A stretch of DNA of 64,000 nucleotides from Janibacter endophyticus (GTDB taxonomy: Bacteria > Actinomycetota > Actinomycetes > Actinomycetales > Dermatophilaceae): contig NZ_JAFEJG010000004.1 of NCBI RefSeq assembly GCF_016888335.1, forward strand, positions 124,001 through 188,000, given 5' to 3'. The position numbers were made by a program, and so were the translations under genes. Position 1 is the first letter of the stretch; each line of letters starts with the position of its first letter. Positions 13,448-35,326 of the stretch are shown piece by piece. Below the pieces are notes generated by a model. That model did not search any database, had not been told where the DNA came from, and worked only from the letters and a program-made list of their open reading frames with translations.

Positions 13448-15568
13448 ATGCGCACCGTCCGGACTCTCGTCGCGGCTGCCGCCGCGAGCACCCTCGGGCT
13501 CGTCGCGGCCGCAGCCACCGCACAGGCCGACCCCGTCACCGAGGAGCTCACCGTCATCTGCGACGGTATCGGCGACGACACGATCACCGTGACCGGCGAC
13601 CTTGCCGACGGTGGCACGGCCACCCTGCCGGCGGATGGTCCGCTGAAGGTCGTCGGCAAGCCTGGCTTCGCCGGCCGGACGATGAAGGGGGCCAAGGTCG
13701 AGGTCGAGCCCACCGGCGAGGGCGTCACCTGCACGGCGCAGACCCCGACGACGGGCGATCTCGACGAGATCGTGCCCGCGGAGCAGGCGGCTACCGCCCC
13801 CGCCGCAGCGGACAGCCCTGTCCGGGGTGCCCTGACCTTCACTGTCACTGTCGACGAGGCCTCCGTCAACGCTGCCGCGCAGCAGCGCTCCATGTCGACC
13901 ACCACGGCGTCGAACCGATTCCCCTTCGAGTCCGAGCTGCGCACCTACCTCGCCGGGCGGCCAGGCGCGACCGGGGTCGCCGTCCGCATCCCTGGCTCCG
14001 GCGAGGTCTTCTCGTACACGAAGACCTCGAACCGCAACGTCACAGCGAGCATCGTCAAGGTCGAGATCATGGCCGGGGTCATGCTCAAGGCGCAGGCCGC
14101 CGGCCGCGGGCTGACGACGTGGGAGAAGTCGAAGATCGTCCCGATGATCCGCAACAGCGACAACGCCGCGACGACCTCGCTCTACACCCACATCGGCCGC
14201 CGGGACGGCCTGACCCGCGTCTCGCAGCGGCTCGGCATGACCCAGACGATCTCCGACCCGGCCGACCACTGGGGGCTGACGTCCACGGTCCCCGAGGACC
14301 AGGCGCTGCTCATGGAGCACTTCACCCGCGCCACCGGCAAGCTGACAAGCACCAACCGGTCCTACGGCATGACCCAGATGCGCAACATCAACACCGCCCA
14401 GGACTGGGGCGTCACCGCCGGCCCGCCGAGCGGCACCGTGGCGCTGAAGAACGGCTGGCTCCCCCGCACCGACGGCTGGCACGTCAACTCGATCGGCGCC
14501 GTCCAGCACAGCCCCTACCACTACAGCATCGGCGTGCTCACCCACGACGGGTCGAGCAGCGGCACGCAGTCGCGACAGGTGAGCACGATCGAGGGCGTGA
14601 GCCGGATCGTCTACACGAAGCGGCAGACGATGTACGAGGCCATCGCCAAGAAGAAGGTCACCCGGGTCGGCGGGAACGACCGGTTCTCGATCTCGGCGGG
14701 CGCGTCGGCCAAGACCTTCCCCGCCGGGGCGCCGGTCGCCTACGTCGCCGCCGCGAGCGCGACAGCCGACATCCTCTCGGCGGCCCCGGCCGCAGGCCGC
14801 TCCGGGTCGCCGCTCCTGCTCGTGGGCCGCGACGCCGTGAACGCCCCCGTCGCCGCAGAGCTGCAACGCCTCAAGCCGGCCAAGATCGTCCTGCTCGGCG
14901 GCACGGTCGCGGCGAGCACGACGCTCGAGCGAGCCTTGCGGCAGTATGCGACCACCGGGGTCGTCGAGCGATGGGGAGGCCCGACGAGGTACGCGTCGTC
15001 GGCGCTCATCAGCGCGCTTACCGCCGCCCCGGGCCTCGACACCGCCTTCGTCGCCACCGAGAAGAACGTGACCGCCGCCATCGCCGTGGCCCCCGTGGCG
15101 GGGCGGCTCAAGGCGCCGGTCCTCTTCACCCCCCAAGAGCGCCTCCACGCCGAGACGGCCACCGAGCTCAAGCGCCTGGCCCCACGCCGCGTGGTGCTCC
15201 TCGGCGGTGGGCCCAGCATCTCCGCAGAGACCGAGGCCCAGGTCCGCAGCGCCCTGCCCGGAGTCCGGATCGAGCGGTGGACCGGCAGCAACCGCGTCAA
15301 CGGGGCCATAAACATCGCGACGAAGGGGGGTCTCATGTCGTCGAGCACGGCTTGGGTCGTGGAGCGCAACCAGCTCTTCCAGGCGATGGCGGTGACCTCG
15401 GCGGCCGCCAAGGACCAGGGCCCGCTCTACTTCACCGACTCCTCCAGCCTTACGGCGGCGACGCGCACCGCGCTCGTCAACCAGCCGCTGTCGACGCTCT
15501 CCATCGGCGGCGGGACCGGTCTCGTCTCGAGCTACACCGCGTTCCAGCTCTCACAGACGGTCGACTGA
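13448..15568 (+). CDS. Exported beta-lactamase-like serine hydrolase fused to three CWB2 cell-wall-binding repeats
   Basis: A 706-residue secreted protein. After a signal peptide (~1-27, ending AQA) comes an unrecognised beta-rich segment (30-145), then a class A beta-lactamase-like domain with S201-x-x-K204 (SIVK), S237-D238-N239 and K334-N-G336 in place of KTG, and then three CWB2 repeats starting near 406 (RVGGNDRFSIS), 505 (ERWGGPTRYAS) and 606 (ERWTGSNRVNG). CWB2 repeats anchor proteins to cell-wall polymers. The S-to-SDN spacing (36) is shorter than in true class A lactamases, so it may be a peptidoglycan-acting or inactive relative. ATG 13448 has AGGGGAG upstream. Confidence 0.82.
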   Translation: MRTVRTLVAAAAASTLGLVAAAATAQADPVTEELTVICDGIGDDTITVTGDLADGGTATLPADGPLKVVGKPGFAGRTMKGAKVEVEPTGEGVTCTAQTPTTGDLDEIVPAEQAATAPAAADSPVRGALTFTVTVDEASVNAAAQQRSMSTTTASNRFPFESELRTYLAGRPGATGVAVRIPGSGEVFSYTKTSNRNVTASIVKVEIMAGVMLKAQAAGRGLTTWEKSKIVPMIRNSDNAATTSLYTHIGRRDGLTRVSQRLGMTQTISDPADHWGLTSTVPEDQALLMEHFTRATGKLTSTNRSYGMTQMRNINTAQDWGVTAGPPSGTVALKNGWLPRTDGWHVNSIGAVQHSPYHYSIGVLTHDGSSSGTQSRQVSTIEGVSRIVYTKRQTMYEAIAKKKVTRVGGNDRFSISAGASAKTFPAGAPVAYVAAASATADILSAAPAAGRSGSPLLLVGRDAVNAPVAAELQRLKPAKIVLLGGTVAASTTLERALRQYATTGVVERWGGPTRYASSALISALTAAPGLDTAFVATEKNVTAAIAVAPVAGRLKAPVLFTPQERLHAETATELKRLAPRRVVLLGGGPSISAETEAQVRSALPGVRIERWTGSNRVNGAINIATKGGLMSSSTAWVVERNQLFQAMAVTSAAAKDQGPLYFTDSSSLTAATRTALVNQPLSTLSIGGGTGLVSSYTAFQLSQTVD

Positions 15569-26985: not shown

Positions 26986-26986
26986 C

Positions 26987-27061
26987 CCCCTTCGCCCACG
27001 CCCCCTTCGCCCACGCCCCCTTCGCCCCCGCCCCCTTCGCCCCCGCGCCCTTCGCCCACCC
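26987..27061. repeat. Five tandem 15-base units each containing CCCTTCG
   Basis: Units of the form CCCCTTCGCCCACGC at 26987, 27002, 27017, 27032 and 27047, with variation at positions 12 and 14-15. The array begins immediately after the MFS stop codon and ends about 120 bases before the cydA promoter region. Four of five units contain the full CCCCTTCG octamer. Confidence 0.9.
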
Positions 27062-27171: not shown

Positions 27172-27225
27172 TTGCTTGTGACTACTACGGTCCGTCGTAG
27201 CATGTACGACGACATGTAGTACTAC
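27172..27225 (+). promoter_or_regulatory. Predicted cydA promoter overlapped by BlaI-like TACTAC dyads
   Basis: TTGTGA (27176-27181) and TAGCAT (27198-27203), 16 bases apart, form a plausible promoter. Between them lies CTACTACGGTCCGTCGTAG (27182-27200), a 9-1-9 dyad with 8 of 9 matches. Immediately downstream are CATGT-6-ACATG (27201-27216) and GTAGTACTAC (27216-27225). BlaI/MecI repressors bind TACTAC/GTAGTA dyads, and a blaI homologue is in this operon, so autoregulation is likely but inferred. Confidence 0.6.
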
Positions 27226-27245
27226 GACGTTTGCAAGGGGAGCCG

Positions 27246-28712
27246 ATGGAAACCCTCGAGCTCGCGCGGTGGCAGTTCGCCATCACCACCGTGTACCACT
27301 TCTTCTTCGTGCCGATCACCATCGGCATGTCCGCGCTCGTCGCCTGGTTCCACACCCGGTGGCTCATCAAGCGCAACCCCGAGGACATGAGGCTGGCCAA
27401 GTTCTTCGGCAAGCTCTTCACGATCAACTTCGCCCTCGGCCTCGTCACCGGCATCGTCCAGGAGTTCCAGTTCGGCATGAACTGGAGCTCCTACAGCCGT
27501 TTCGTCGGTGACATCTTCGGTGCCCCCCTCGCGTTCGAGGCGCTCCTCGCGTTCTTCATGGAGTCGACCTTCCTCGGCCTGTGGATCTTCGGCTGGGGCA
27601 AGCTCCCGGAGAAGATCCACGTCATGTGCATCTGGCTGGTGCACATCGGCACGGTGCTCTCCGCGTACTTCATCCTCGCGGCGAACTCCTTCATGCAGAA
27701 CCCGGTCGGCTACCGGATCAACGAGGTCACCGGCCGCGCCGAGATGGCCGACTTCATCGCCGTGCTGACCAACAAGGTCCAGCTCGTCGCCTTCCCGCAC
27801 GTCGTCACCTCGGCGTACATGGTCGGTGGCGCCTTCATCATGGCCGTCGCCTTCCACAAGATGCGCCAGGCCCAGCGCGGCGAGGCCGCCACGGTCGCCG
27901 GCGCCGGTGGCCAGGAGGAGGTCCCGATGTGGCGTCGCGCCGCACGTCTCGGGGCGGTCGTCTCCCTCGTCGCCGGCCTCGCCGTCGCCGTCTCCGGCGA
28001 CGTCCAGGGCAAGATCATGACCGAGGTCCAGCCCATGAAGATGGCGGCCGCGGAGGCGCTCTACGACACCCCGCCCGCCGGGGAGTGCGCACCCTTCTCG
28101 GTGCTCACCGTCGCCGGGCTCGGGGGCGAGGACCCCCGGCACATCATCGAGATCCCCTGCCTGCTGAGCTACCTCGGCACCGGCAGCTGGGACGGCCAGG
28201 TCCAGGGCATGGTCGACATCGAGAACGAGTACCGGGCGACCTTCGCTGACCAAGAGCTCACCCAGGCGGACAGCTACATCCCGCCGATCGCGATGACGTA
28301 CTGGAACTTCCGCCTCATGATGGGCGCCGGCTTCTTCGCCGCCGGAGTTGCCGCCGTCGTCCTCTTCGCCACGCGCAAGAAGGCGATGGGGGTGCCGATG
28401 CAGGGCTGGTGGAAGCCGCTGCTCGTCCTCGCCCCGATCGCCACGGTCGTCGCCAACAGCTTCGGCTGGATCTTCACCGAGCTGGGCCGCCAGCCCTGGA
28501 TCGTCCAGGGTGAGATGACGACGGCCCAGGGTGTCTCGCCCTCCGTCGGTGCCGCCGACGTGTGGATCTCGATGATCGTCTACACCCTCGTCTACGGCGT
28601 CCTCGCCGTCATCGAGGTCAAGCTCTTCCTCGACTACATCAAGAAGGGCGCGGAGCCGTTCGAGGAGCCCAAGCTCCTCGAGGACGACGACGAGCTCGCC
28701 TTCGCGTACTGA
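27246..28712 (+). CDS. cydA: Cytochrome bd ubiquinol/menaquinol oxidase subunit I
   Basis: A 488-residue integral membrane subunit carrying haems b558, b595 and d of the high-affinity oxygen-reducing terminal oxidase. The N-terminal WQFAITTVYHFFFVPITIG holds the first haem-ligating His; FPHVVTSAYMVGGAF holds another; GRQPWIVQGEMTT is the conserved quinol-side motif. About nine hydrophobic segments and a short Q-loop are seen. ATG 27246 follows AAGGGG; a TTG five codons upstream is in frame but less likely. First gene of cydABDC-blaI-M56. Confidence 0.95.
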   Translation: METLELARWQFAITTVYHFFFVPITIGMSALVAWFHTRWLIKRNPEDMRLAKFFGKLFTINFALGLVTGIVQEFQFGMNWSSYSRFVGDIFGAPLAFEALLAFFMESTFLGLWIFGWGKLPEKIHVMCIWLVHIGTVLSAYFILAANSFMQNPVGYRINEVTGRAEMADFIAVLTNKVQLVAFPHVVTSAYMVGGAFIMAVAFHKMRQAQRGEAATVAGAGGQEEVPMWRRAARLGAVVSLVAGLAVAVSGDVQGKIMTEVQPMKMAAAEALYDTPPAGECAPFSVLTVAGLGGEDPRHIIEIPCLLSYLGTGSWDGQVQGMVDIENEYRATFADQELTQADSYIPPIAMTYWNFRLMMGAGFFAAGVAAVVLFATRKKAMGVPMQGWWKPLLVLAPIATVVANSFGWIFTELGRQPWIVQGEMTTAQGVSPSVGAADVWISMIVYTLVYGVLAVIEVKLFLDYIKKGAEPFEEPKLLEDDDELAFAY

Positions 28713-28729
28713 CAGGAGACGCGACAGAC

Positions 28730-29821
28730 ATGGAACTCACGACCTTCTGGTTCATCCTTCTCGCGGTCCTGTGGACGGGCTACCTCGTCCTCGAGGGCTT
28801 CGACTTCGGGGTCGGCATGCTCGTCCCCGTCCTCGGCGGCACCCAGCGCGGCACCGAGCCGCAGGCCGTCGAGGAGGAGAAGAAACGCCGCGTCCTCCTC
28901 ACGACGATCGGGCCCTTCTGGGACGGCAACGAGGTGTGGCTGCTCACCGCCGGTGGCGCGACCTTCGCCGCCTTCCCGCACTGGTACGCCACGATGTTCT
29001 CCGGCATGTACCTCGCCCTGCTCCTCGTGCTCGTCGCGCTCATCCTGCGCAACATGGGCTTCGAGTACCGCCACAAGCGGGACTCCGAGGCGTGGCGCAA
29101 GGGTTGGGACTACTGCATCATCGGCGGCTCCCTCGTCGCCCCGCTCCTCGTCGGCGCGGCCCTGACGAACCTCGTCTACGGCCTGCCGATGGAGGCGCAC
29201 ATGGCCGGCCAGACCGAGTACACCGAGTTCACCGGCACCCTCTTCAGCCTGCTCAACCCGGTGAGCCTGCTCGGCGGCATCACGATCGTCGCGCTCTGCC
29301 TGACGCACGGCGCCCACTTCGTCGCGCTCAAGACGCACGGCGAGATCCGGGAGCAGGCGCGCGCCTTCGCGACGAAGGCGGGCCTCGTCTCGGCCGTCCT
29401 CGCTGTCGTCCTGCTCCTGTGGCTGGGCATCCTCGAGGGCTCGGCGTGGTCGTGGCTCACCACGGCGCTCGCGGCCGTCGCGCTGCTCGCGGCGATCTTC
29501 TTCAACACGAAGGGGTTGGAGGGCAAGGCCTTCGTCGGCACGACCCTGACGATCCTCTTCGCCGTCGCGACGTACTTCCTCATGCTCTTCCCCAACGCGA
29601 TCAACGGGCGCGGTGACGACCCGAACCTCACCCTCGAGGCGGCCGCCAGCTCCCCGCTGACGCTGAAGATCATGACCGGTGCGGCGCTCGTCTTCACGCC
29701 CATCGCGCTCATCTACACGGCGTGGAACTACTGGGTCTTCCGCAAGCGGATCTCGACGGACCACATCCCCGCGTCGACCGACCCGCTGGCGACGACCCAG
29801 GGCGAGCCCGTCAAGGGCTGA
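28730..29821 (+). CDS. cydB: Cytochrome bd oxidase subunit II
   Basis: A 363-residue membrane subunit that pairs with CydA. Starts MELTTFWFILLAVLWTGYLVLEGFDFGVGML, a CydB hallmark (key ELTTFWF and LEGFDFGVG), followed by GPFWDGNEVWLL and FPHWYATMFSGMYLAL. About eight or nine helices. ATG 28730 lies 17 bases after cydA, with AGGAG about 11 bases upstream. Confidence 0.95.
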   Translation: MELTTFWFILLAVLWTGYLVLEGFDFGVGMLVPVLGGTQRGTEPQAVEEEKKRRVLLTTIGPFWDGNEVWLLTAGGATFAAFPHWYATMFSGMYLALLLVLVALILRNMGFEYRHKRDSEAWRKGWDYCIIGGSLVAPLLVGAALTNLVYGLPMEAHMAGQTEYTEFTGTLFSLLNPVSLLGGITIVALCLTHGAHFVALKTHGEIREQARAFATKAGLVSAVLAVVLLLWLGILEGSAWSWLTTALAAVALLAAIFFNTKGLEGKAFVGTTLTILFAVATYFLMLFPNAINGRGDDPNLTLEAAASSPLTLKIMTGAALVFTPIALIYTAWNYWVFRKRISTDHIPASTDPLATTQGEPVKG

Positions 29822-29831
29822 CCGGCACCCG

Positions 29832-31499
29832 ATGGCCGCCCCCTTCGACCTCCGACTCCTCCGCCTGGTACCGCAGACGCGGCGCCCGGTGGGGGTGCTC
29901 GGAGCGCTGGGAGTCCTCGGGGGTCTGGCGACCATCGCCTCGGCCTTCGCGCTGACGACGCTCGTCGTCGCCGTCGTGCGCGGCGAGCCGATCCTCACCC
30001 CGGCGCTCGCGACGCTGGGGATCTTCGCGCTCCGGGCCGTGCTCGCGGCGGTCTCCGAGCGGGTCGCGGCCTGGGCCGGAGCGCAGGTGAGCACCCAGCT
30101 GCGCGAGGAGCTCGTCGCGACCTGGTTGCAGCGCCCGGCCGAGGAGCGCCCCGAGCCCTCGCGCGCGCTGACCCTCGCGGCGCAGGGCACGGCGAGCGTC
30201 GAGCCCTACGTCGCGAAGTACCTGCCGACCCTCGTCACCGCGGCCGTCGTGCCGCCGCTGGTGATCCTCACCCTGCTCGTCCTCGACTGGCCGGCCGCGC
30301 TCGTCGTCATCCTCACCCTGCCGCTGCTCCCCCTCTTCGCCGTGCTCATCGGCATGTCGACCGCCGAGGACACCCGGAAGCGGTGGCGCGCCCTGAGCGA
30401 CCTGTCTGGCCACTTCCTCGACGTCATGACCGGCCTGCCGACGCTCGTCACCTATGGGCGCGGCGACCGTCAGGTGCGCTCGGTCCAGGAGGTCAGCCAG
30501 CGGCACCGCCGGGCGACGATGCGCACCCTGCGCCTGGCCTTCATGTCCTCGGCGGCGCTCGAGCTGCTCGCGACGATCTCCGTAGCCATCGTCGCGGTGC
30601 TCGTCGGTCTGCGGCTCACCTACGGGGCCATGGACCTGTGGGTCGGCATGCTCACGATCCTCCTCGCCCCGGAGGCGTACTGGCCGGTCCGCCGGGTCGG
30701 CGGCGAGTTCCACTCCGCGGCCGACGGTGCGGAGGCGGTCCAGGGCATCCTCGCCGAGCTCGCCTCTCGCTCGTCCGCCGGGGTTGCCGGCGAGCCGGGG
30801 ACGAAGGGGGCGGAGCCGGGAGCCGTGGTCGTCACCGACCTCTCGTACACCTATCCCGGCACCGAACGGGCGGTGCTCGACGGCGTGAGCCTGAGCGCCG
30901 GCAGCGGCCTGACCGCCGTCACCGGCACCTCGGGCGTCGGCAAGACCACCTTGCTCGAGCTGGTCGCGGGGCTGCGGACCCCGACCGCCGGCACCGTCCT
31001 CGCCCCCGCCGTGCACCTCGTGACCCAGCGTCCCTTCTTCGGCGCACCCACCCTGCGCGGCAACCTCGCTCTCGGCAGGGACGCGGACGACGCGGCGATG
31101 TGGACCGCGCTGCGCGAGGTCGGCCTCGAGGGCTTCGTCGCCGGGCTGCCGCAGGGGCTCTCGACGCCGGTCGGCGACGACGGCTTCGGCCTATCGGCCG
31201 GCCAGCGCGCCCGGCTCGTCCTCGCCCGCGCGGTCCTCTCCCCCGCCTCGGTCATCCTCCTCGACGAGCCGACCGCCCACCTCGACGTCGCAGCGACGGC
31301 GTCCGTGCACGACGCGATCGAGCGGATCGCCCAGACCCGCACCGTCATCGCGGTGACCCACCGCCCCGAGCTCGTCGCCCGCGCCGACCACCACGTGCAC
31401 CTCGAGTCGCCCACCGACTCGTCCCAGGCCGGTCCCAGGTCGGCGGGGGATCATGGGTCTCCCCAGGCCACGGCGACGAAGGGGGGCGGGGCCCGATGA
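29832..31499 (+). CDS. cydD: ABC transporter for cytochrome bd biogenesis, CydD subunit
   Basis: A 555-residue half-transporter: six-helix membrane domain (1-310) then NBD with Walker A GTSGVGKTTLL, signature LSAGQRARL, Walker B VILLDEPTAHLD and switch His VTHR. CydDC exports thiols/binds haem and is needed for assembly of the bd oxidase. ATG 29832 is 10 bases after cydB. The stop overlaps cydC (ATGA). The linker before the NBD (GEPGTKGAEPG) and the C-terminal tail (ATKGGGAR) both contain the CGAAGGGG octamer. Confidence 0.92.
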   Translation: MAAPFDLRLLRLVPQTRRPVGVLGALGVLGGLATIASAFALTTLVVAVVRGEPILTPALATLGIFALRAVLAAVSERVAAWAGAQVSTQLREELVATWLQRPAEERPEPSRALTLAAQGTASVEPYVAKYLPTLVTAAVVPPLVILTLLVLDWPAALVVILTLPLLPLFAVLIGMSTAEDTRKRWRALSDLSGHFLDVMTGLPTLVTYGRGDRQVRSVQEVSQRHRRATMRTLRLAFMSSAALELLATISVAIVAVLVGLRLTYGAMDLWVGMLTILLAPEAYWPVRRVGGEFHSAADGAEAVQGILAELASRSSAGVAGEPGTKGAEPGAVVVTDLSYTYPGTERAVLDGVSLSAGSGLTAVTGTSGVGKTTLLELVAGLRTPTAGTVLAPAVHLVTQRPFFGAPTLRGNLALGRDADDAAMWTALREVGLEGFVAGLPQGLSTPVGDDGFGLSAGQRARLVLARAVLSPASVILLDEPTAHLDVAATASVHDAIERIAQTRTVIAVTHRPELVARADHHVHLESPTDSSQAGPRSAGDHGSPQATATKGGGAR

Positions 31500-33202
31500 G
31501 CATCGCCCGACCCTCCCGTGCGCCCCGGCGGCAGGACGGTGGCGTCCTCGCCGTCAGCCCGAAGATCATCATCGCCGGGCTGCTCGGCGGCGCGGCCGCC
31601 GCCTCCGGTGTCGCGCTGACGACGACCTCGGGGTGGCTCATCGTCCGGGCCGACCAGCGGCCCCAGATCCTCCTGCTCATCACGGCCATCGTCGGGGTGC
31701 GCACCTTCGGCCTGGGCCGTCCGGTCTTCCGCTACCTCGAGCGGCTGCGCAGCCACGACGCCGCGCTCGAGGTGCTCGCCGACCGACGCGCCCAGACCTA
31801 CGCGCGGCTCGTCCCGCTGACCCCCGCCCGGCTCGGGCGGAGGGGCCGCACCGACCTGTTGACCGGGGTCGTCGACGACCTCACCGACATCACCGAGGCC
31901 GCTGTCCGGGTGACGGTGCCCGTCATCGGCGCTCTGCTCGCCGGGGTCGTCGCCACCCTGCTCACCGCCTTCTTCGAGCCGGCCGCCGGGCTCGTCCTCG
32001 CCGGCATGCTCGCCGCCTGCGCCGCCCTCGTCGCGCTCTGCTACCGCCTCGAGGCCTCCGCCCAGGCCGAGGTCCTCGCCGCCCGCGCGGAGGTGACCCG
32101 CGTGAGCCACCTCGCGACCCGCTACGCCGACGACCTGCGTGCCATCGGCGCCACCGGGACCGCCGAGGGCTGGGTCGCCGACGCCCACGGCGCGTTGCGG
32201 GCCGAGCTGGGTCGCCAGGCCCGCGGTCGCGCCCTGGTCTCCGGCGGCGTCCTGCTCGTCACGGCGCTCGCGACCCTCGGCTGTGCCTGGGTGGCGATCG
32301 GCAGCGACGTCTCGACCCCGGTGAAGGCGCTCCTCGTCCTCGCACCCGTCGCCACCGGCGAGATCCTCGGCGTGCTCACGGACGCCACCCGCGCGCTGGC
32401 TCGCGCGACGGCCGGTCAGACCCGCCTCGACGCCCTCCTCGACCAGGACCCGGCCGTCGTCGATCGCGCCGACGTCGACACGACCGCCGGGGAGCGGCTG
32501 CGCACCCTGGCCAGCGCCCCCGTCATCGAGCTGCGGGACCTCACCGCGTCGTGGACCGGAGGCGCCACCCACCTCGGTCCTGTGTCCCTGACGATCGAGC
32601 CGGGCGAGCACCTGGCCCTCGTCGGGGCGAACGGCAGCGGCAAGTCGACCCTGCTCGCCGTCCTCGGCAGGCACCTCGACCCGACGACCGGCAGCTACCT
32701 CGTCAACGGTCAGGACACCGCCGAGCTGCCCGTCGCCGACGTCCGCTCGCTCGTCGCCGTCGTCGACGACGAGCCGCACGTCTTCGCCTCCACCCTCCGC
32801 GAGAACCTCCGGCTCGCCCGCGGCCCCCAGCAGGAGGCGGCCACCGACGACGAGCTGCTCGACGCCCTTCGCTGCGCCGGCCTGCAGACCTGGCTCGACG
32901 GCCTCGACGACGGACTCGACTCCCGGCTCGGCGTCGGCGGCCTCGGGGTCTCCGGCGGCGAGCGCACCCGCCTGGCCATCGCCCGGGCCCTCGTCTCGGA
33001 CCGCCCCGTGCTCCTCCTCGACGAGCCGGGCGCGCACCTCGACCACCCGACGGCACAGGCCGTCATCACAGACCTCCTCGCCGGCGCACCAGGACGTACC
33101 GTGATCCTCGTGTCGCACCACGATGTCGGGACCGACCTGGTCGACCACGTGGTCGACCTGAGCAGCATCACGAAGAACGGGAAGGTGATCGGACATGCCT
33201 AG
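31496..33202 (+). CDS. cydC: ABC transporter for cytochrome bd biogenesis, CydC subunit
   Basis: A 568-residue half-transporter that pairs with CydD. The membrane domain contains TTTSGWLIVRADQRPQILLL and FRYLERLRSHDAAL, a CydC hallmark; the NBD has Walker A GANGSGKSTLL, signature VSGGERTRLA, Walker B VLLLDEPGAHLD and switch His VSHHD. ATG 31496 overlaps cydD, and its 3' end overlaps the blaI start by eight bases, so the regulator gene is physically fused into the operon. Confidence 0.92.
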   Translation: MSIARPSRAPRRQDGGVLAVSPKIIIAGLLGGAAAASGVALTTTSGWLIVRADQRPQILLLITAIVGVRTFGLGRPVFRYLERLRSHDAALEVLADRRAQTYARLVPLTPARLGRRGRTDLLTGVVDDLTDITEAAVRVTVPVIGALLAGVVATLLTAFFEPAAGLVLAGMLAACAALVALCYRLEASAQAEVLAARAEVTRVSHLATRYADDLRAIGATGTAEGWVADAHGALRAELGRQARGRALVSGGVLLVTALATLGCAWVAIGSDVSTPVKALLVLAPVATGEILGVLTDATRALARATAGQTRLDALLDQDPAVVDRADVDTTAGERLRTLASAPVIELRDLTASWTGGATHLGPVSLTIEPGEHLALVGANGSGKSTLLAVLGRHLDPTTGSYLVNGQDTAELPVADVRSLVAVVDDEPHVFASTLRENLRLARGPQQEAATDDELLDALRCAGLQTWLDGLDDGLDSRLGVGGLGVSGGERTRLAIARALVSDRPVLLLDEPGAHLDHPTAQAVITDLLAGAPGRTVILVSHHDVGTDLVDHVVDLSSITKNGKVIGHA

Positions 33203-33656
33203 CGCGCGCAGCTCCCTGGGATCTCTGGAGCGATCGGTCATGGACGTGCTCTGGGCAGGGCCGGAGGCGGGCCTGACCGTCAGGGAGGTCCTCGAGCGGA
33301 TCGAGACCGGCAAGGACCTCGCGTACACGACCGTCATGACGGTGCTGACCCGCCTGGCGGACAAGGGCGTGCTCGAGCGCGAGCAGGACGGTCGCGCATG
33401 GCGCTACCGCGCCGCCCAGAGCCGGCAGCAGATGACGGCCGAGGCGATGCGCGACCCCCTCGAGAGCATCCCGCACGAGGAGAAGACCTCGGCGATCCTC
33501 CACTTCATCGAGGAGGCCACCCCCGCCGAGATCGCCAGCCTGCGCGCCGCCCTCGACGCCGTCGAGACGCGCGCCGCCGAGGCGCCGAAGGCGACCGGCC
33601 AGACCGAGTCCACCTCGTCACGCTCCGTGGTCCCCCTTCGCCGTCGGCGTCGATGA
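33195..33656 (+). CDS. BlaI/MecI-family winged-helix repressor
   Basis: A 153-residue regulator. The N-terminal ~80 residues (LGSLERSVMDVLW, LTVREVLERI, AYTTVMTVLTRLADKGVLERE) are the BlaI/CopY/MecI winged helix; the next ~40 form the helical dimer segment that BlaR1-type proteases cleave. An unusual Arg-rich tail (PLRRRRR) is encoded over the CCCCTTCG octamer. ATG 33195 lies inside cydC and the stop overlaps the M56 peptidase gene (ATGA). Likely represses its own operon, including cytochrome bd genes, through the TACTAC dyads before cydA. Confidence 0.9.
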   Translation: MPSARSSLGSLERSVMDVLWAGPEAGLTVREVLERIETGKDLAYTTVMTVLTRLADKGVLEREQDGRAWRYRAAQSRQQMTAEAMRDPLESIPHEEKTSAILHFIEEATPAEIASLRAALDAVETRAAEAPKATGQTESTSSRSVVPLRRRRR

Positions 33657-34504
33657 CCGCGATCCTCCTCGTCGCGGTCGGCGTCCTCCTCGTCACCACC
33701 GCGCCCAGGGTGCTCAGCGCCCTGCCCGGCCTGCGCCGCTCCCCCCGGGCGGCGCTGCTCCTGTGGCAGACGACGGCCCTGGCGGGCACCGTCTGCGTCA
33801 TCGCGGCCGGGCCGGTCGCGGCGATCTCGATCTGGCCCCTGGACCGTCGTGGGATCGACGTCGCCGCCGCGCTCGTCGCCCTCGTCGCGAGCGCGCAGTG
33901 CCTCAGCCTGATCCTCGTCAACGGGCACCTCGTGGGCACGACGCTGCGCAGCGCCCGGCGTCGCCACCGCGCCCTGCTCCGCCTCGTCGGCGACGACCAC
34001 CGCGACGGCCGGCTGACGATCGTCGAGCACCACACCCCGACCGCCTACTGCGTGCCGGGGCGCCGGCGCCGCGTCGTCCTCTCGACCGCCACGCTCTCCG
34101 AGCTGCCCGAGGACGAGCTCGACGCCGTGCTCGCCCACGAGCGCGCCCACCTCGGCGAGCGCCACGACCTGCTCCTCGAGTACTTCACCGTCGCCCACCG
34201 CAGCGCGCCGCGGTGGCTGCGCTCGGACCGCGCGCTCTCCGAGGTGCGCCTGCTCATCGAGGTGCTTGCGGACCGCGCGGCCCGGCAACGGACCGGGGAC
34301 GTCCCGCTCGCCCGGGCCCTCGTCCGCCTCGCCGGCTCCCGGACGCCGGAGGCGATGCTCGGCGCCGCCGACGAGGCGCACGTCGCCGCCCGGATGGACC
34401 TCCTGGCCACGCGGCCGGCATCCGCCTGGCACGCGGCCGGGGTCTACACGCTCGTCGTCCTCGTCGGGCTGCTCCCGGCCGGGGTGCTCGCCCTGACGAT
34501 GTAG
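33653..34504 (+). CDS. M56 (BlaR1/MecR1-type) membrane metallopeptidase
   Basis: A 283-residue membrane protease with three N-terminal helices (about 1-18, 33-55, 62-85), a zinc site HERAH in LAHERAHLGERHDL and a C-terminal helix. It lacks the extracellular penicillin-sensor domain of BlaR1, so it would not sense beta-lactams in the classic way. By analogy it inactivates the BlaI partner on an unknown signal. Last gene of the cyd-blaI operon; ATG 33653 overlaps blaI (ATGA). Confidence 0.88.
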   Translation: MTAILLVAVGVLLVTTAPRVLSALPGLRRSPRAALLLWQTTALAGTVCVIAAGPVAAISIWPLDRRGIDVAAALVALVASAQCLSLILVNGHLVGTTLRSARRRHRALLRLVGDDHRDGRLTIVEHHTPTAYCVPGRRRRVVLSTATLSELPEDELDAVLAHERAHLGERHDLLLEYFTVAHRSAPRWLRSDRALSEVRLLIEVLADRAARQRTGDVPLARALVRLAGSRTPEAMLGAADEAHVAARMDLLATRPASAWHAAGVYTLVVLVGLLPAGVLALTM

Positions 34505-34594: not shown

Positions 34595-35326
34595 ATGCCG
34601 ATCCACGGTTCGCTCTTCACCGAGTTCCAGGAGCAGAGCTCCCCGGACCAGTTCTCGCTGCAGAACAAGAAGCTGCTCAAGATCCAGATGGGCTACGGCC
34701 CGGTCTGGGCGCGGGCGGGTTCGATGGTCGCCTACCAGGGCGACATCCGCTTCGAGAACACCGGCTCCGGCGGTCTCGGCAAGCTCGTCAAGGCCGCCGC
34801 CACGGGCGAGGGCGTGAAGATGATGCGCTGCACCGGGTCGGGCGAGCTCTTCGTCGCGCACGAGGCCCGCGAGGTCCAGGTGATGTACCTCGAGGACGAC
34901 ATGGTCTCGGTCAACGGCGCCAACGTCCTCGCCTTCTCCGACTCGATCCGGTGGGACATCAAGCGGATCCAGGCCCGTGGAGCGGCGATGACCGGCGGCC
35001 TCTACAACGTCGAGCTCCGCGGCAGTGGGTACGTGGCCGTCACGACGAAGGGGGATCCCGTCGCCCTCGACGTCTCGGGCGCGCCCACCTACGGTGACGC
35101 GCAGGCGGTGGTCTTGTGGACCGCCGGTGTCCAGATGGACATCCGGGTCGACACCGGCGGGCTGCGCTCGATGGTCCGGGGCGGGACGGGCGAGACCTTC
35201 CAGATGGCCTTCGGCGGGCAGGGCTACGTCCTCGTCCAGCCGAGCGAGTCGGTCACCGAAGGGGGCCACCAGAGCAGCGGCGGCGGGGGCGGTGGCGGGA
35301 TGCTCGGCGACCTCCTGGGAAACTGA
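34595..35326 (+). CDS. AIM24/TerD-fold family protein (DUF124)
   Basis: A 243-residue, beta-rich cytosolic protein of the AIM24 family (LFTEFQEQSSPDQFSLQNKKLLKI, GSMVAYQGDIRFE, GSGELFVAHEAREVQV). A Gly-rich tail (SSGGGGGGGMLGDLLGN) ends it. The family is widespread in actinobacteria with unknown biochemistry. ATG 34595 follows AGGAGGGGG. Four bases before the next gene, so the pair is probably co-transcribed. VTEGGHQ covers a CGAAGGGG octamer with a rare GAA codon. Confidence 0.82.
   Translation: MPIHGSLFTEFQEQSSPDQFSLQNKKLLKIQMGYGPVWARAGSMVAYQGDIRFENTGSGGLGKLVKAAATGEGVKMMRCTGSGELFVAHEAREVQVMYLEDDMVSVNGANVLAFSDSIRWDIKRIQARGAAMTGGLYNVELRGSGYVAVTTKGDPVALDVSGAPTYGDAQAVVLWTAGVQMDIRVDTGGLRSMVRGGTGETFQMAFGGQGYVLVQPSESVTEGGHQSSGGGGGGGMLGDLLGN

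Follow-up and report, generated by a model that had tools for sequence, protein, structure and literature searches.

Why should the operon of a respiratory oxidase contain a BlaI/MecI-type repressor and, directly behind it, a membrane protease resembling BlaR1, a pair familiar above all from penicillin resistance? This question is raised by a 64-kb stretch of the 2.98-Mb genome of Janibacter endophyticus (contig NZ_JAFEJG010000004.1), hereafter called the window, in which cydA, cydB, cydD, cydC, blaI and a zinc protease gene follow one another as a single co-directional gene run. Cytochrome bd serves the survival of low oxygen, sulfide and respiration-blocking drugs. An earlier note on this DNA had described the run as a contiguous operon with overlapping genes, and this reading was borne out: cydD and cydC overlap by 4 nt, cydC and blaI by 8 nt, and blaI and the protease gene by 4 nt.

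After comparing this locus with its relatives, we consider it probable that BlaI represses the cyd operon from paired operators and that the protease lifts this repression on a respiratory or membrane, non-antibiotic signal. In the proposed mechanism, BlaI dimers would occupy two adjacent 17-bp operators overlapping the cydA promoter, and the bound repressor would shut down the whole cydABDC-blaI-protease operon. Upon a respiratory or membrane signal, the sensorless four-helix zinc protease would inactivate BlaI, and the release would yield cytochrome bd and probably the product of a further target gene, which encodes a DoxX-like membrane protein. BlaI and the protease would be remade together with the oxidase; since both genes lie inside the repressed operon, the switch would reset itself.

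Paired operator dyads at the cydA promoter

TACTAC-type dyads are the operator motif of BlaI and MecI. Two exact 17-bp dyads of this type were observed in the window, compared with 0.01 expected by chance, and both stand at the cydA promoter, the second ending 24 bp ahead of the cydA start (Table 1). The earlier note had pointed to CTACTACGGTCCGTCGTAG, which includes the first exact 17-mer, and to further dyad sequence adjoining it, GTAGTACTAC (27216-27225), which overlaps the second. The second 17-mer, beyond what the earlier note saw, is a complete site. The observation of the cyd gene run with its operator dyads is confirmed. The placement of the first dyad between a -35 and a -10 element stood in part: the hexamers TTGTGA and TAGCAT, picked out by eye, frame it, but a consensus promoter scan reported no -35/-10 pair at its threshold upstream of cydA.

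The BlaI of the cyd run is the sole Penicillinase_R protein detected by a search of the whole genome. Its nearest solved relative is 2g9w (E 1.2e-39), which we take to be M. tuberculosis Rv1846c. It falls below the curated NCBIfam cut-offs for BlaI_of_MRSA, BlaI_of_BCL and MecI_of_mecA (19.6 to 33.5 bits versus 180-250).

Table 1. Features of the cyd-blaI locus, in window coordinates
Feature	Position	Strand	Basis
Putative core promoter: -35 TTGTGA, 16-nt spacer, -10 TAGCAT	-35 27176-27181; -10 27198-27203	+	By eye; overlaps operator 1
Putative BlaI operator 1, 17-bp dyad TACTACGGTCCGTCGTA	27183-27199	+	Exact TAC[GT]AC-N5-GT[AC]GTA; kept in relatives
Putative BlaI operator 2, TACGACGACATGTAGTA	27205-27221	+	Exact match; 22 bp centre-to-centre from operator 1
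cydA, cytochrome bd oxidase subunit I	27246-28712	+	Pfam PF01654 (CydA), 505 bits
cydB, cytochrome bd oxidase subunit II	28730-29821	+	Pfam PF02322 (CydB), 340 bits
cydD, ATP-binding cassette (ABC) exporter half	29832-31499	+	PF00664 and PF00005; conserved order
cydC, ABC exporter half	31496-33202	+	PF00005; conserved order
blaI, BlaI/MecI-type repressor	33195-33656	+	PF03965 (Penicillinase_R), 101.3 bits versus cut-off 22.6
Sensorless BlaR1-like membrane zinc protease (M56/M48 clan), 283 aa	33653-34504	+	Pfam, motifs, hydropathy, model

Two features flank the run. A tandem array of about five copies of the 15-bp unit CCCCCTTCGCCCACG (26986-27059) lies between a major facilitator superfamily gene and the cyd promoter, and CCTTCGC strings similar to the array stand upstream of cydA in loci L033 and L058. 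An AIM24-family gene (PF01987, 118 bits; 34595-35326) comes after the protease gene, and several related genera have it downstream of their cyd-blaI block too.

Conservation of the linkage and of the operator

The comparison of dyads and gene order that the earlier note had proposed was run at three scales. Within the family, 122 of 148 genomes gave a BlaI match, and 40 loci were fetched, approximately one per BlaI-bearing genus plus a few. In 36 of these 40 loci blaI directly follows cydC, and in one (L064) blaI and the protease gene stand ahead of cydA; the other three (L036, L063 and L070) have no cyd genes next to blaI. Discarding five loci with an unreadable cydA start left 36 readable promoters (35 relatives and the window), and every one carries a dyad, 26 of them exact and 10 with a single mismatch; eight contain two exact dyads, 19-25 bp apart. 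The half-site spacer is 5 in 26 promoters; elsewhere in the range of 0-12, only a spacer of 2 (four promoters) or 8 (one promoter) is seen. All 40 loci (501 kb in total) contain 33 exact dyads, 32 of them no more than 200 bp ahead of cydA, compared with no exact dyad for a reversed-pattern control over the same DNA.

A second set consisted of the best 80 of 593 BlaI loci, picked by similarity, several of which come from genomes already in the comparison. Here three gene orders occur. In the first, blaI comes after cydC; in the second, blaI and cydA diverge and the dyads lie in the interval (Nocardioides, Kribbella, Aeromicrobium, Actinoplanes, Kineococcus, Actinomycetospora and others); in the third, blaI and the protease gene stand in front of cydA (Micromonospora, Serinicoccus). 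Fifty-three loci were usable, the other 27 being dropped for an unreadable cydA start. An exact dyad lies within 250 bp of the cydA start in 45 of the 53 and a dyad with one mismatch in three, whereas 1,845 random control chunks contained no exact dyad and one with a single mismatch. Micromonospora saelicesensis has a second cydA-cydB elsewhere in its genome (L282:529-1998), with two exact dyads before that cydA.

Among 118 genomes sampled across the class, BlaI was found in 74 (E at most 1e-12), CydA in 93 and both in 71. The two genes lie within about 6 kb of each other in at least 31 of these 71 genomes, which represent eight families (linkage read by eye). A quick BlaI tree placed every cyd-linked row on one side of its starred branch, with 14 unlinked rows on the other side and 15 more rows labelled unlinked, mycobacterial BlaI among them, on the linked side. 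This tree is built on few columns and many of its forks are open, and two of 120 loci were left out because their BlaI stretch was too short or absent; three of its rows labelled 'convergent' are in fact divergent, and some labelled 'none' (e.g., L197 and L199) have cydD beside blaI.

The operator is also kept in genomes where the repressor gene lies apart from its presumed target. We inspected the cydA upstream regions of 20 of the 40 genomes with unlinked blaI and cydA. All nine genomes of group f6 have an exact dyad, and in all five of f16 the dyad has a single mismatch. The cydA dyad is kept, with blaI elsewhere, in Mycobacterium sp. MFM001 and Mycobacteroides sp. LB1, and both carry exact dyads also before a qcrB-type cytochrome b gene, the ATP-synthase-I gene atpI (more than 200 bp off) and blaI itself; their total exact sites number 6 and 6, respectively, compared with 5 and 2 in the control. 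The mycobacterial dyads at cydA and atpI agree with the binding of cytochrome bd and ATP synthase promoters ascribed to M. tuberculosis BlaI in PMC5473688, citing Sala 2009.

These data bear on whether the arrangement is mere co-inheritance of neighbours without regulation, with the dyads belonging to another regulator. Close relatives share neighbourhoods anyway, but the linkage is kept through three layouts with dyads in the cydA promoters of each, and the cydA dyad persists where blaI is elsewhere. We therefore regard co-inheritance alone as highly improbable.

Some observations nevertheless count against control of cyd by BlaI as a general rule. BlaI is present without a nearby cydA dyad in the five remaining usable loci of the second set, all Micromonospora, and among the unlinked genomes no cydA dyad at up to two mismatches was found in f18 (0/3) or in f17, f14 and f3 (0/1 each). 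Moreover, M. tuberculosis cydB is placed under SenX3/RegX3 in PMC7924339, so other cyd regulators exist. Against these exceptions stand the linkage in three layouts, an operator with a fixed 5-nt spacer and the cydA operators in trans, all of which back the control of the cyd promoter by BlaI that had been suggested for this locus. Operator control of cyd by BlaI, presumably as repression, is thus strongly supported by comparison.

The protease and the proposed release of BlaI

The last gene of the run had been described as encoding an M56 protease that lacks a penicillin-sensor domain. The second half of this description holds, as the protein ends with its fourth helix and has no Pfam sensor domain. 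The first half fits the fold better than the profile: the Pfam M56 score (PF05569, 21.8 bits) is below its cut-off of 31 and the M48 score (37.9 bits) above its cut-off of 20.3, but the fold is closest to the membrane and protease part of BlaR1. Because Pfam places the protein nearer M48 than M56, we named it BlaR1-like and not BlaR1.

The motif HERAH (HExxH) occupies residues 162-166, and HExxH and E..AD are kept in 19 of 19 aligned sequences. Alignment-averaged hydropathy put four helices at residues 1-24, 32-65, 66-93 and 256-283; the zinc domain lies between the last two of them. BlaR1 and MecR1 are built of three membrane helices, a zinc domain, a fourth helix and then the sensor, and the helix order of our protease is this arrangement of three helices, zinc domain and fourth helix. 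For its AlphaFold model (predicted local distance difference test score, pLDDT, 86.6), the best structural match was S. aureus BlaR1 8ext (Z 11.2 over 207 residues, root-mean-square deviation 4.7). The alignment runs from model residues 3 to 239, helices included, to BlaR1 residues 1-285; 8exp and 8exr gave Z 10.1 and 9.1, respectively. ZMPSTE24, Ste24 and BepA aligned over the zinc domain with Z 8-10, and ZMPSTE24 (Z 9.6) spans residues 82-252 only. We rejected an assignment as HtpX (M48), which the Pfam score favours, but the helix order and the structure alignment do not, both favouring BlaR1.

Several points pull away from a BlaR1-like protease acting on BlaI. The Z score of BlaR1 is only 1.6 above that of ZMPSTE24, and values under about 13 are modest for helical proteins and can reflect a common arrangement. 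A plain Foldseek search put Ste24 and BepA at the top (E 0.003 or more), with BlaR1 absent from its 45 rows. In 5 of the 40 family loci the protease gene is on the strand opposite to blaI, and in six there is none in the fetched stretch; a genome-wide search of those six recovered a protease in three, at a distance of 4-12 kb from blaI, gave no more than a weak match in G025 and detected none in G038 and G044, where BlaI is cyd-linked.

Such genomes would suit a stand-alone BlaI tuned by a ligand, metal or redox partner, to which the linked protease would be incidental. In G038 and G044, BlaI persists together with a cydA site (with one mismatch in G044), and BlaI of J. endophyticus scores 55.7 bits against the profile of the CopY copper repressors (NCBIfam TIGR02698). 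However, this score is far under the cut-off of 121.95; the protease gene follows blaI on the same strand in 29 of the 40 family loci, with the five opposite-strand copies also close by, and it is present in the divergent and blaI-first layouts as well. We consider a stand-alone repressor quite unlikely. Release of BlaI by proteolysis is plausible in view of the fold, the linkage and the intact HExxH and E..AD motifs, and the wall or respiratory stress offered by the earlier note as its signal is a guess.

A near-invariant cysteine lies in the strand before HExxH. A survey of 120 loci, 11 of which had no protease match, found it in 104 of 109 proteases (82 of the 83 linked to cyd and 22 of the 26 unlinked ones), L212 being the linked locus without it. 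We rejected this cysteine as a cyd-specific sensor, given its presence in unlinked proteases and its absence in L212, and it remains a candidate only; with survey rows that are not independent of one another, it has the appearance of a clade marker. In Amycolatopsis palatopharyngis (L200:2172-4967), two BlaI-like genes and two protease-like genes are lined up consecutively, and only one of the two proteases has the strand cysteine.

Other candidate targets and known BlaI systems

If BlaI also acted away from cyd, what would it control? Genome-wide, exact dyads stand in three places in J. endophyticus, compared with one for the reversed control: two at cydA and the third (C4:826618; L156:4619-5267) 65 bp ahead of the start codon of a gene for a 189-aa membrane protein. 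This protein matches DoxX below the cut-off (E 0.65; E 0.004 for its relative in G015), so 'DoxX-like' is a weak label. The gene with its site recurs in six genomes of four genera (the window genome, G032, G015, G057, G021 and G034), and the protein of the congener G032 (L307) is 65% identical to that of J. endophyticus.

Genome-wide counts speak less well for a wider regulon. With one mismatch at most, 17 sites (three exact) are found in J. endophyticus compared with 31 in the reversed control, and the inexact sites were dropped for this reason; in other genomes too, exact-pattern counts are often no higher than the control. Sites away from cyd are therefore weak evidence unless they recur, so we rejected pattern counts as a regulon test and kept only recurring neighbours. 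The exact sites inspected away from cyd are a selection (40 stretches, then 15, then 7), and neighbours that did not recur were left unused (L132, L144, L148-L150, L152-L155, L275, L276, L280, L283-L287, L302, L304 and L308).

The most frequent recurring neighbour, found in seven genomes, is an unnamed, roughly 196-aa membrane protein without a significant Pfam match; in five of them its gene is divergent from an M48/HtpX-type gene. In L117, L127, L133, L138 and L143, the dyad lies between the two. A gene for a pyridoxamine-oxidase-type flavin mononucleotide protein recurs in five genomes, a type III sulfide:quinone reductase in three genomes of two genera (the G015 protein scores 643 bits versus a cut-off of 525), a protoporphyrinogen-oxidase-type gene in two genomes with a distant relative in a third, a pyruvate phosphate dikinase gene in two, and a radical SAM (S-adenosylmethionine) protein with a flavin adenine dinucleotide (FAD)/Fe-S protein in both genomes of one genus. 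A hydrolase-like protein, recognized by eye only, lies 150-298 bp from the dyad in three (L131, L137 and L142). BlaI searches returned one match each in G015, G057, G021, G045, G034 and G032, and two in G003; with a single BlaI per genome, the sites in the first six most likely belong to the cyd-linked BlaI. The recurring targets point to respiration, redox and sulfide more than to the wall. In a mapping restricted to exact sites, the ATP synthase operon of J. endophyticus has no dyad, these sites being confined to cydA and the DoxX-like gene.

A cell-wall or beta-lactam stress system, in which wall damage would activate the protease indirectly and cytochrome bd would be induced as drug tolerance, has to be weighed here. 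In M. tuberculosis, amoxicillin-clavulanate induces blaR-blaI and cydAB even though its BlaR has no sensor, according to PMC5473688. In contrast, the only exact sites in the J. endophyticus genome are those named above, its three Beta-lactamase2 matches are weak (23-32 bits; one is in a cell-wall-binding protein and one, by our own reading, in a penicillin-binding protein (PBP)-like gene), and the recurring other targets of its relatives are respiratory or redox genes. We consider a wall-stress system unlikely, and prefer BlaI repression of cyd lifted by the protease on a respiratory or membrane signal. A beta-lactamase target was rejected as well, since the one-mismatch site near the PBP-like gene (C4:499423) falls inside that coding frame. 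In the window, a 706-aa protein (13448-15568) combines three cell-wall-binding CWB2 repeats with a beta-lactamase-like enzyme domain.

We tentatively speculate that actinobacterial BlaI with its sensorless protease may be primarily a respiratory-stress switch, with beta-lactam control as a side branch. The protease might read the membrane or quinone state via its helices or the cysteine, and removal of BlaI might induce a sulfide- and redox-protective branch (cytochrome bd, sulfide:quinone reductase, the DoxX-like protein and the HtpX-type protease). The way in which many actinobacteria switch on cytochrome bd is unsettled, and the gene order in eight sampled families together with the operator offers a simple, testable answer. 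The pair is thereby a candidate respiratory-stress switch in many actinobacteria, the signal of the protease becomes approachable in harmless species, and the BlaI/BlaR1 architecture, as these data suggest, need not be an antibiotic sensor.

A literature search, conducted mostly without subscription papers, found no description of blaI within or beside a cyd operon, nor of the arrangement as one operon, how widely it occurs, its three layouts or the sulfide and DoxX-like targets. Rex, which controls cydABCD in Streptomyces, is also a repressor of an actinobacterial cyd operon, from a different protein family and with a different signal. In kind, the system is already known from BlaI-BlaR (Rv1846c-Rv1845c) of M. 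tuberculosis; blaI is presumably not adjacent to cyd there. The likeness extends to the nearest solved BlaI relative, the cyd target and a BlaR without a sensor domain (PMC5473688). The papers vary in the targets they give: cyd binding is stated in a single citing paper, PMC5473688, PMC5874750 places BlaI at the atp genes only, and PMC7924339 and PMC8265638 name the atp genes and sigC besides blaC. The M. tuberculosis system differs in that BlaI there also represses blaC (PMC5473688), whereas in J. endophyticus the pair lies inside the cyd operon and the other exact site belongs to the DoxX-like gene. With BlaR1-BlaI and MecR1-MecI of S. aureus, our system shares a BlaI/MecI-type repressor, TACTAC-type dyads and the fold of the zinc protease, but it has no penicillin-sensor domain, and its putative target is a respiratory oxidase.

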